A DNA stretch of 64,000 nt, taken from assembly GCA_016788705.1 (NCBI GenBank), contig JAEUSQ010000065.1, forward strand, positions 1 to 64,000, read 5' to 3'. This document shows, one piece after another, positions 25,941-30,809 of the stretch. Within the stretch, counting starts at the first letter, position 1; the number at the start of each line of letters is the position of its first letter. The DNA is from Bacteroidetes Order II. bacterium. Its GTDB lineage: Bacteria > Bacteroidota > Rhodothermia > Rhodothermales > UBA2364. Position numbers and translations under genes: made by a program. The notes below the pieces were generated by a model. That model did no database searches. It had not been told where the DNA came from and saw only the letters and a program-made list of their open reading frames with translations.

Positions 25941-26984
25941 TTAACGCAAGACAAACATTACGCGCCTGTTCTTCTGACGACCCGAAGCGGTTTTATTATC
26001 CGCTACGGGATTGGATTGACCATAGCCCTTGGCCGTCAACCGATCTGGATTGGGGACTCCCTGAGCGACAAGTGCGGCTTTAACTGCTTCGGCCCGTTGC
26101 TGGCTGAGGGTCAGGTTTTTCGCTGCATCGCCTTGGCTGTCTGTATGCCCTTGAATTTCAACGGCATTGGCGGCATATTGCTTTAGATAACCCGCTGCCT
26201 TGGTGACAAGCGTCATCGAAGCAGGTTTGATCACTGCACTCGCTGTCTCAAACTCAATATTTTGAAGGGTAAGTTCATTTAGGTCGGATTGTAATTGCGT
26301 ATTTTCAGGGGCCTTAACCACTAAATTATTTTGTATCCTTGCTTTTGGATAGGCCGATTTCGCAGCACTTTCCAACTCTGTCCTTATGGCATCCGACTGC
26401 ACCTCGCCGTCCAAACTGACCGTATCGCCCGTGATATTCAATTTTCCACCCTTCAATAGCGCTCCTTTGGAGAGAAAAGTTCCAACCAATGGCCCGACAT
26501 CGGCACCAAAATCAGTAATACCGGGCTTTACAACCAATTGATTTAATACTTTTTCGGCACCAAATTTTTCTTGAGCAGCCTTTAGCACTTTATTTTTCGT
26601 GTCTTCATCCGGTACAATTCCAGAAAGAACCACCATGCCATTGGCATCAAAGCCGACATTTAAACTGGCAATCTCTCCGTTATCCGCAGCTAATGAGGTA
26701 CCGGCAATGGAAAGGTTGTTTTTAATAGGAAACAGAAACCCAGCAGCATGCTGTGCAGCAGCTAGGGCCGCATCAGCAGCCGTTTTTGTAGGAACGCTCC
26801 CGGTCAACGTCCCCACTGCCCCGTCAAAAACAGGGGTAACCCCCGTAAATTCCGGCGATTGAAGGTTTGCACTAACCGCCCTTTGTAACTTGGCCTCTAT
26901 CGCAGAATGATGACAAGAAGTACAAAGAAACGACAATATCAACACCCCCAACAACCCCAGAAGGAGTTTCATCAGGTTAGACAT
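25941..26984 (-). CDS. BON- and OmpA-domain lipoprotein
   Basis: This 347-residue protein has a hydrophobic leader ending LCTSC (lipobox), then two or three BON-like repeats (TGSVPTKTAADAALAAA..., LNVGFDANGMVVLSGIVPDEDTKNKVLKAA, GDTVSLDGEVQSDAIRTELESAA). A C-terminal OmpA domain follows (VEIQGHTDSQGDAAKNLTLSQQRAEAVKAAL, then ASGRQKNRRVMFVLR). The OmpA domain binds peptidoglycan non-covalently, so it probably ties the outer membrane to the wall. M5 is an alternative start. The HhH coiled-coil gene follows on the same strand. Confidence 0.9.
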   Translation of the reverse strand: MSNLMKLLLGLLGVLILSFLCTSCHHSAIEAKLQRAVSANLQSPEFTGVTPVFDGAVGTLTGSVPTKTAADAALAAAQHAAGFLFPIKNNLSIAGTSLAADNGEIASLNVGFDANGMVVLSGIVPDEDTKNKVLKAAQEKFGAEKVLNQLVVKPGITDFGADVGPLVGTFLSKGALLKGGKLNITGDTVSLDGEVQSDAIRTELESAAKSAYPKARIQNNLVVKAPENTQLQSDLNELTLQNIEFETASAVIKPASMTLVTKAAGYLKQYAANAVEIQGHTDSQGDAAKNLTLSQQRAEAVKAALVAQGVPNPDRLTAKGYGQSNPVADNKTASGRQKNRRVMFVLR

Positions 26985-27245: not shown

Positions 27246-29426
27246 TTATAGAGTAGAACTGTCCTGAAAAAAACGTTGCAAATTTCCCCGAATCCGATCT
27301 TCCGGACATGGATCGGCATCAGGGACAAACGCCCTCCCTGTAATTCGTTCAAAGAGTTCCATATACCGCAATGCGACCATTTCGCGAAAGGCTTCGTCTA
27401 AGTGTGGCATGTTTTCCCCTGTTTTCCCCTGAAACCCACGTTCCATCAGCCATTCCCGTACAAATTCTTTAGAGAGTTGCCTTGGCGATTCGCCCTTATG
27501 CAAAAAGGCTTCATAAGATTCTGCCAAATAATAGCGGGAAGAGTCCGGGGTATGCACTTCATCTGCCACCACAAAACGTCCCATTGGGTCTCTTCCGAAT
27601 TCGTACTTCGTATCCACCAACAAAAGCCCACGCTCCAGCGCCATTTCGGTACCGCGATTAAACAGGCGCAACGCCATAACCTTCAATGTATCAAACTCCG
27701 CTTCGGTCAGGATCCCCAATTCAAGGATTTCTTCACGGCTGATGTCCATATCGTGGCCTTCGGCTGCCTTTGTAGTAGGGGTTAAAATGGGATGGGGGAG
27801 TTTTTGGTGTGGAATTAGGCCATCTACTAATGAAACCCCACACAATTCTCGTTTTCCCGTTTGGTACGTTCGGGCTGCATGCCCAGCCAAGTACCCTCTC
27901 ACGACAAATTCTATCGGCACAATTTGGCACTGCACCCCAATGGTCACATTCGGGTCTGGAACCGCCAATACATGATTGGGCACGACATCGGCGGTATGTT
28001 CAAAAAAATACGCAGCCAATTGGTTTAATACCTGCCCTTTAAATGGGATGGCTTCAGCCAGAACATGGTCAAACGCCGAAATACGATCGGTCGAGACCAG
28101 AATCAATTTCCCATGTACTGCATAGGTATCTCGGACCTTTCCCCGATACTGGATGCCAAAGTCGCCCAGTTCGGTCTTGACCAATGCATGTTCCATATGA
28201 TCCTGTATGGCAGATTTCAGACTGGGTTCCACCGAGAAGGTGGCCTTTTGGCGGTTCACAAACACAGGCTCTTCAGTTGGTTCAAAGGGAAGTTCTTTTC
28301 CAGCAATACGCATTAAGGCAACGGTATATAACACCGCATTCAGGTAGGCTTTTCCATTCTGACCTGTGTTCCTCAGCCGATACCAAGTAGCCTGTTCGTC
28401 CCGTAAGAATATCCATTCCGGCATCTCTGGCTGCTCAAACAACTGTATATCTGCGGCAGCACCTTGCGAAGAAACCAGCCAATTTTTGCCCTCAGAAAAA
28501 AGGGCATCTTTTTCGGTTCTCGGATCATCTGCATGAAAAACTACCGCGTCTTGATGCCTTACGGTGCGTAACACAACGGATAATGTGGTATCTTCGGGCG
28601 ATGTGGGCAGAACCAACACCACGTCTGGAGACCATAAACGATGTAGTTTTTGAAACGCAGAAAGTTCGGCTTTGTGCTCGGTTTCACACCCAACCAAGAC
28701 GACAGCCAGCCGGTGTTCCGGCTTTAGGTCATTTTCCAGATAGAGGGCCACCTCTTCCGGAAAGGTGCAATAATCATGGGTATATAGCATTGGAATATAC
28801 GCATGCAAGTAGCGAACAAAGGTTAAATAATCTTCTTTGTTTCCCCACACAAATACCCGCCCCAAGTCTTTTCTGGTACGCAAGATGCGTTTAAGATTTC
28901 GGATGCTTTTTTTTGAGCTTGATCGTTCTTTCCACCCCATGATACGTGCCGCCATGTTCACCCAAAGCGGAATCGCAATATCGGCAATCACCAATCCTAA
29001 AATATAAAATGCCCAACCCATTGCCTTGATAGAAATCCACCACAATGCTCCGCCCATTAGGATCGGAAGTAAAAGAAATACCAGCGATGCTTTAAAGATC
29101 CATTTCCTTCTATGCGGGGCTATAGTGGTTAAAGAACAGGCCGGGAACCTTTGTTTTGGTATAAACAAACTGGCAATAACCAGCACCAGCAGACCTGCCA
29201 CCGCCATATCCCCATGCCCAATAGCAAATGCGGTTCCGCCAGAAACAATCACCCCTAAAATATGACGAATCGCCAAAACCATAGAGGACACCTCTCCCAG
29301 CCTGAATCGGAAAACAAAGCGGTCATAGCCAGAAGCAGCCAACAGGTCCACAAATGCGCGAAGTCGGGACACCGAATGACGCAACAGAATCATGGTAGCC
29401 ACTACTGAAATCGTAACCATAAACAT
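27246..29426 (-). CDS. purC: Fusion: membrane-bound P-loop-less MurF-like module + SAICAR synthase (PurC)
   Basis: The start at 29426 has a strong AAGGAAGGA ribosome-binding site; an ATG 13 codons upstream has none. The 726-residue product ends in a complete PurC (about 411-717: YRGKVRDTY, LILVSTDRISAFD, EFVVRGYLAG, LTPTTKAAEGHDMDIS, LVDTKYEFG, DSSRYYL). PurC joins CAIR and aspartate in purine synthesis. The first 400 residues have membrane segments (about 57-160), then a region that follows Mur-ligase order: GNKED (195-199) where GKT/S should be, LKPEHRLAVVLVGCE, HADDPR (298-303) and GKAYLNAVLYTVALM. I read it as a degenerate MurF-like ligase. M411 is preceded by AGGA, so free PurC might also be made. 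The fusion is one uninterrupted frame. Confidence 0.85.
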   Translation of the reverse strand: MFMVTISVVATMILLRHSVSRLRAFVDLLAASGYDRFVFRFRLGEVSSMVLAIRHILGVIVSGGTAFAIGHGDMAVAGLLVLVIASLFIPKQRFPACSLTTIAPHRRKWIFKASLVFLLLPILMGGALWWISIKAMGWAFYILGLVIADIAIPLWVNMAARIMGWKERSSSKKSIRNLKRILRTRKDLGRVFVWGNKEDYLTFVRYLHAYIPMLYTHDYCTFPEEVALYLENDLKPEHRLAVVLVGCETEHKAELSAFQKLHRLWSPDVVLVLPTSPEDTTLSVVLRTVRHQDAVVFHADDPRTEKDALFSEGKNWLVSSQGAAADIQLFEQPEMPEWIFLRDEQATWYRLRNTGQNGKAYLNAVLYTVALMRIAGKELPFEPTEEPVFVNRQKATFSVEPSLKSAIQDHMEHALVKTELGDFGIQYRGKVRDTYAVHGKLILVSTDRISAFDHVLAEAIPFKGQVLNQLAAYFFEHTADVVPNHVLAVPDPNVTIGVQCQIVPIEFVVRGYLAGHAARTYQTGKRELCGVSLVDGLIPHQKLPHPILTPTTKAAEGHDMDISREEILELGILTEAEFDTLKVMALRLFNRGTEMALERGLLLVDTKYEFGRDPMGRFVVADEVHTPDSSRYYLAESYEAFLHKGESPRQLSKEFVREWLMERGFQGKTGENMPHLDEAFREMVALRYMELFERITGRAFVPDADPCPEDRIRGNLQRFFQDSSTL

Positions 29427-29673
29427 TTTTTGTCCTTCCTTTGAATACTTTGCGGAACGAGACATTTTATTGCAAACAAATATCCATCCGCCTTATTTTG
29501 AGCGCATATCGGCCAATCATCCGCGCTTTCAAACGTATATGCCCGATTGATCCCATTGCGTATGATGACGTTTCCCTTCTCGGTTGTTCCGGCAAAATAA
29601 GCAACCGAAAGCCGTATTTCGCGGGATAAACAAAATCTTAGGCACCTGATAACCTAAAACCCGAATCGTTTTG

Positions 29674-30783
29674 ATGGAAGAACAATATTTTACCGGTCTG
29701 CTGGAGCTCATCGGGGATAAAAAATTTGGATTTGTACGAACCTTGCGCCACGACTTACCTAAAGGTGAGTTGGATCCATTTGTTCCCCCGCCCATGATTA
29801 AACGATTCCATTTGCGAGACGGTGTTACCATCGAAGGAACCGCCGTACCGGGTAAAAAAGGGGATATGGTCATTAAGACCGTAGAAAAAGTAATGGGTAT
29901 TCCAGTTGACCGCTGGGTAAAAATCCCTTTGGATGCAAACGAGCCCACGGTTTACCCCAACGAGAAATGGAATTTAGTCACCAATGCCAAAGACATTCCA
30001 ATGCGTATGATAGACATTGTTGCGCCTATTGGAAAAGGACAACGTGCGATGGTGGTTTCCCCGCCCCGAAGTGGGAAGACGATGATTTTGCACGGCATTG
30101 CACGCGGAATTCATCAAAATCATCCTCAAGCGGCCCTGGTAGCACTCTTGGTGGATGAACGTCCAGAAGAAGTGACTGACTTTAAACGCAACATTCCTGC
30201 AATGGTTTTTGCTTCCTCTAACGACCGAGAAGAAGACAACCATGTTCGGGTTTCCACCCTTGCGTTGGAGTACTGCTTGCGCCTAGTAGAAATGCGCCGT
30301 GATGTGGTTTTCTTAATTGACTCTCTTACCCGCCTTGGCAGAACGTTCAATCTTTTTAATGCAGGGAGTGGTCGCACGCTTTCAGGTGGTTTAGACTCAC
30401 GCGCACTCAACATCCCTCGGCGTATATTCGGTGCCGCAAAAAAATTAGAACGAGGAGGCTCGCTAACGATTGTGGCCACCGCACTCACCGATACAGGCAG
30501 CCGCATGGATGAGGTGATCTTAGAAGAATTTAAGGGAACGGGCAATTGCGAAATTGTTTTGGACCGCGAAATGGCCAATAAACGCATTTTTCCGGCCATT
30601 AATGTGCGACGTTCTGGAACGCGAAACGAAGACCAGTTGCTCGGCGACCTCACCTACCGGCAGCATACACTGATGCGGGTTTTGAACATGCGACACCCTA
30701 TAGAGGCTGGACAAGCGCTGATTAAACGCATCAACCAAACGAGTTCTAACGAGGAATTGCTGCACGACATTGCCCCAACACGG
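29674..30783 (+). CDS. rho: Transcription termination factor Rho, short form
   Basis: This hexameric RNA-dependent ATPase stops transcription. The ATG at 29674 is preferred to a TTG one codon earlier. The 369-370-residue protein starts directly with the RNA-binding cold-shock-like domain (FTGLLELIGDKKFGFVR, FHLRDGVTIEG) and lacks the helical N-terminal subdomain found in the 419-residue E. coli protein. The ATPase core is intact: P-loop PPRSGKT (130-136), VDERPEEVTD, VVFLIDSLTRLGR and the Q/R-loop segments SRALNIPRR and VLDREMANKRIFPAI. It is divergent from the PurC fusion gene. Confidence 0.96.
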
Positions 30784-30809
30784 TAAAAAATACGTAAACA
30801 GACACCCTT

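Follow-up and report, generated by a model that had tools for sequence, protein, structure and literature searches.

A PurC fused in frame to a membrane region and a degenerate MurF domain in a genus of Rhodothermales

Introduction

In Mur ligases, the P-loop, a glutamate, and a His...Lys motif make up the ATP, metal, and carbamylated-lysine sites. The reuse of such a ligase outside cell wall synthesis is illustrated by PAP11, a MurE-like protein of flowering plants that is part of the plastid RNA polymerase (PMC9434261). In Bordetella, MurE and MurF are joined in a single chain for which a membrane-side complex has been proposed (PMC6420597). MurG has been put forward as a membrane-side scaffold that binds MurF (PMC6420597).

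Here we describe a bacterial protein, encoded in a 64,000-nucleotide stretch of DNA (the window) from a member of the Rhodothermales, in which a membrane region and a degenerate MurF domain precede a predicted complete PurC. It combines a gene fusion with the reuse of a pseudoenzyme. Like PAP11, it would represent a Mur ligase reused outside wall synthesis; PAP11, however, is a relative of MurE, works as part of a polymerase, is not membrane bound, and is not fused to a metabolic enzyme. The Bordetella protein likewise carries Mur domains in one chain, but the two ligases that make it up are both active and belong to one pathway. A PurC bound to the membrane or a fusion with a dead MurF is not known to us, and the papers searched, which cover part of the literature, contained neither of these and no PurC-MurF fusion.

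Nearer comparisons come from related genomes. The membrane-anchored MurF of the same class (540 to 600 amino acids; loci L036 and L031) shares with the fusion a membrane region, the middle-domain fold, and a place beside rho. Unlike the fusion, it has an intact P-loop, the glutamate, the His...Lys motif, and the C domain, and it serves as the cell's MurF. The stand-alone PurC proteins of the order (NF009251/PRK12607 type) resemble the PurC half in having the full domain and the conserved motifs, with about 55 to 65% identity, but they are single-domain proteins without a membrane part and are encoded elsewhere in the genome.

Results

The fusion protein is 726 amino acids long and is encoded by a single open frame on the minus strand (27246 to 29426, stop codon included). 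Its ATG at 29426 is preceded by a ribosome-binding site, AGGAAGG (29434 to 29440, minus strand). An alternative in-frame ATG lies upstream at 29465, but that region is out of frame in the sister species, and the start at 29426 is therefore preferred. The frame, the motifs (LKPEHRLAVVLVGCE, HADDPR, and GNKED at residues 195 to 199), and the ribosome-binding site were all found where the original prediction had placed them. Residues 1 to 168 (28923 to 29426, minus strand) form a membrane region of four to five hydrophobic segments, homologous to that of the class's membrane MurF. Residues 169 to 384 (28275 to 28922, minus strand) are a degenerate MurF middle domain, or pseudo-ligase, recognized by profile match, model, and a match to MurF in the PDB. 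They are followed by a variable linker, residues 385 to 408 (28203 to 28274, minus strand), with a dN/dS of 0.34 over residues 375 to 410 and a pLDDT of about 50 from residue 391, and then by PurC, residues 409 to 726 (27246 to 28202, minus strand). The divergent neighbor of the fusion is rho (29671 to 30786, plus strand), and a gene for an OmpA-family protein (25941 to 26984, minus strand) lies downstream.

Among 60 related genomes searched, the same fusion was present in all three available members of the genus (G000, the window species; G001; and G002), and every other genome with a match had PurC without the N-terminal module. None of the relatives was a further genome of the same family, and the fusion sample is three species only, two of them close. 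In the two further species the fusion is intact and full length, at 83 to 84% and 57% identity to the window protein, and so does not look like a product of chance. In all three genomes it is bordered by the genes for rho, the OmpA-family protein, a helix-hairpin protein, and RadC. An assembly error, considered as a source of the fusion, was rejected, as three assemblies carry both the fusion and the same flanks. The original prediction of a fused frame is thereby borne out across the genus, and its alternative, that relatives would have purC alone, fails.

Residues 1 to 409 gave no hit to any Pfam or NCBIfam model and no sequence hit in the PDB. They do match membrane MurF proteins in related genomes, with a best E value of 9.3e-20 and 23 to 31% identity. 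The matched proteins are mostly 540 to 600 amino acids long and consist of a membrane region, Mur_ligase_M, and Mur_ligase_C, with MurF models scoring best. The order contains 72 further genomes with a homolog of the membrane region. Profiles built from the three fusions recovered membrane MurF separately with the membrane part (E value of 5e-12, score of 77; shuffled controls at most 17) and with the middle part (E value of 2.4e-9, score of 63), and reversed or shuffled controls of both profiles scored at most 18. The genus's own soluble MurF matched the fusion profiles far more poorly, with an E value of 0.09. By these comparisons, residues 1 to 384 descend from the membrane-anchored MurF of the class.

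When MurF relatives were included in the alignment, the model of residues 1 to 409 reached a pLDDT of 84.5, and modeled residues 169 to 382 matched PaMurF (4cvm) with a Z score of 17.9, the highest among MurF structures, in a model whose alignment itself included MurFs. A PAP11 chain was also among the structural matches of the modeled module. A full-length model from the three fusions alone had a pLDDT of 38 and was unusable, so support for the fold runs through homology and is not independent of it. With that qualification, the model places a Mur middle-domain fold at residues 169 to 384. A non-Mur family for residues 1 to 410 was considered and rejected, as the region is Mur by sequence, profile, and modeled fold; the proposal of a membrane-embedded, MurF-derived module is supported.

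The ligase sites of this module are gone in all three species. In the alignment, the fusions have WGNKE or WGDQA, and lack three residues, where the relatives have the P-loop TGSYGKTS; in the window protein the site reads WGNKED (residues 194 to 199; 28830 to 28847, minus strand). The metal-site glutamate of LEMG/LEYG is replaced in the fusions by VLVG or IWGA, and the motif HLETMGS...EK is replaced and shortened to LPTSPEDTTLS with deletions. The C-terminal ligase domain (Mur_ligase_C) is absent, and PurC comes after the middle domain and linker. Since the ATP, metal, and carbamylated-lysine sites are all lost, ligation by the usual Mur mechanism is, judging from the alignment, excluded for the module. 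The loss of the ATP loop had been recognized at the outset, but its extent was understated, the glutamate, the His/Lys motif, and the C-terminal domain having disappeared as well.

The PurC half, in contrast to the dead module, is predicted to be a complete SAICAR synthetase. Residues 409 to 726 match the Pfam family SAICAR_synt at 7.8e-69 (232 bits against a cutoff of 20) and NF009251 at 9.2e-130 (432 against a cutoff of 371), and they align along most of their length to the solved PurC structures 6yvq and 3r9r with the conserved motifs kept. A search for a second PurC in the genome returned this single match only.

Between G000 and G001, the membrane part had a dN/dS of 0.167, the pseudo-ligase part one of 0.165, and PurC one of 0.10; against G002, synonymous sites approach saturation. 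Identity to G002 is 43% in the N-terminal module versus 76% in PurC, and the frame is undamaged. The dead module is under purifying selection. Its dN/dS of 0.17 means that it still has some function, without pointing to a particular one.

The genomic surroundings bear on the origin of the module. A membrane MurF gene adjoins rho in eight fetched relatives, and the fusion adjoins rho in the genus, a case of positional orthology. In the relatives that were read (L031, L038, L046, L047, and L049), an alpha/beta hydrolase gene lies between rho and the membrane MurF, directly upstream of the latter. It is absent from this spot in the fusion genus, where a search for an orthologue yielded no clear one and only weak family-level matches elsewhere. 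In the class-wide membrane-anchored MurF proteins (L031 to L040 and L044 to L050), membrane helices take the place of the usual N-terminal substrate domain; the papers searched, a partial coverage of the literature, contained no description of such a MurF.

Across the 114 genomes of the order, a canonical full-length MurF was found in 35 and the membrane region in 75, and exactly three genomes, those with the fusion, have both. Within the phylum sample, the membrane region is spread across the whole class and absent outside it; it is therefore probably ancestral in the class, in most of which the membrane-anchored enzyme appears to be the sole MurF. No second membrane MurF was found in the genome, and no relics of a dead MurF were found in other families of the order that have a soluble MurF.

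The canonical MurF of the genus (locus L063; G000:C18:49379-50680) lies on a different contig from MurC, MurD, and MurE. In the tree it sits on a long branch of 1.32, apart from the MurFs of other families, and it had no match at an E value of 1e-60 or below in the other genomes of the 148-genome phylum sample. The long branch and the lack of a strong match together suggest that this gene was acquired from elsewhere, likely from outside the phylum. The PurC tree groups the genus with G011 (97/96), which retains an intact membrane MurF; this affinity is a lead only, G011 being a long branch.

Discussion

The most economical order of events that we can infer begins with a soluble MurF. The ancestral gene would have been the class's membrane-anchored MurF beside rho. 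The soluble enzyme would have arrived first and taken over the ligase reaction, and the membrane MurF, thus freed, would then have lost its C domain, P-loop, and metal-site residues. After those losses, the purC gene of the genus would have been added in frame to the end of what was left, a membrane region and a middle domain.

What the product does may be read in part from its topology. Hydropathy places membrane segments at about residues 1 to 19, 51 to 69, 72 to 90, 115 to 133, and 138 to 156, with positive loops at 20 to 50, at 91 to 114, and after 157. PurC would lie on the cytoplasmic face, because the ligase domain that follows the last segment in the relatives must meet cytoplasmic substrates. 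The protein would accordingly anchor PurC to the inner membrane, with the dead middle domain acting as a folded spacer and a docking surface that may retain contacts with the cell wall precursor machinery or bind partners from the purine pathway. We consider it fairly probable that a rho-side MurF was displaced and then turned into a membrane tether or scaffold for PurC, with localization and tethering read from sequence features. Of the roles first proposed for the module, a tie between purine synthesis and the envelope or the sensing of a cell wall metabolite, an attachment of PurC to the membrane stays as the best guess, and metabolite sensing found no support. In a bolder version, which strikes us as unlikely, contacts between the dead MurF domain and the precursor machinery would make the displaced essential wall enzyme a membrane scaffold that physically links purine synthesis with the envelope; if true, this would be a direct link from wall to nucleotides in one polypeptide.

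The module might instead keep a structural role in wall synthesis, docking MurG, MraY, or the soluble MurF, with PurC as a passenger. MurF of other bacteria binds membrane-associated MurG (PMC6420597), selection maintains the middle domain, and the gene is still at the old MurF locus. There is, however, no tie to other mur genes here, and the module has diverged far more between species than PurC has; we hold this role, too, to be unlikely.

Two products, the full fusion and a mostly soluble free PurC, could also arise by initiation near M411 or by cleavage in the linker, which is variable and poorly ordered, leaving the membrane part with a job of its own. The internal AGGA-ATG that the original prediction had offered as a means of releasing PurC is real in the window, where M411 has its ATG at 28194 to 28196 (minus strand), and this ATG is conserved in all three species. 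The bases before the equivalent ATG in the three species read CAGGATCAT, CGAGATCAT, and CGTGCCAAT, and in G002 CAGGAACCTATG stands nine codons before it. But AGGA precedes the codon in G000 only, the ribosome-binding site not being conserved, and stand-alone PurCs begin about 10 residues further upstream. An internal start near M411 is possible on these data, not supported by them, and we rate the two-product arrangement as distinctly improbable. That the fusion merely gave purC a promoter, the module being tolerated ballast, fits its faster evolution relative to PurC but is highly implausible, as a dN/dS of 0.17 over 400 codons and undamaged frames in three species are far from neutral.

The membrane tether remains our preferred reading. 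If PurC is truly held at the membrane, the genus offers a natural test of whether membrane placement benefits a bacterial purine enzyme. The locus also looks to be a well-resolved instance of the replacement of an essential enzyme, its loss of catalysis, and its recycling in a fusion: the original locus, the gene that took over, and relatives with the intact enzyme can all be seen. Beyond the genus, it appears that a membrane-anchored enzyme carries out the MurF step in most of a bacterial class.

PurC has been joined in frame to another protein a second time, independently. In G049 (L016) and G026 (L028), PurC and an upstream LacI-family regulator share one frame of 670 and 668 codons, respectively, with no stop between them. 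In a third member of this family (G035, L126), a TGA separates the regulator from PurC.
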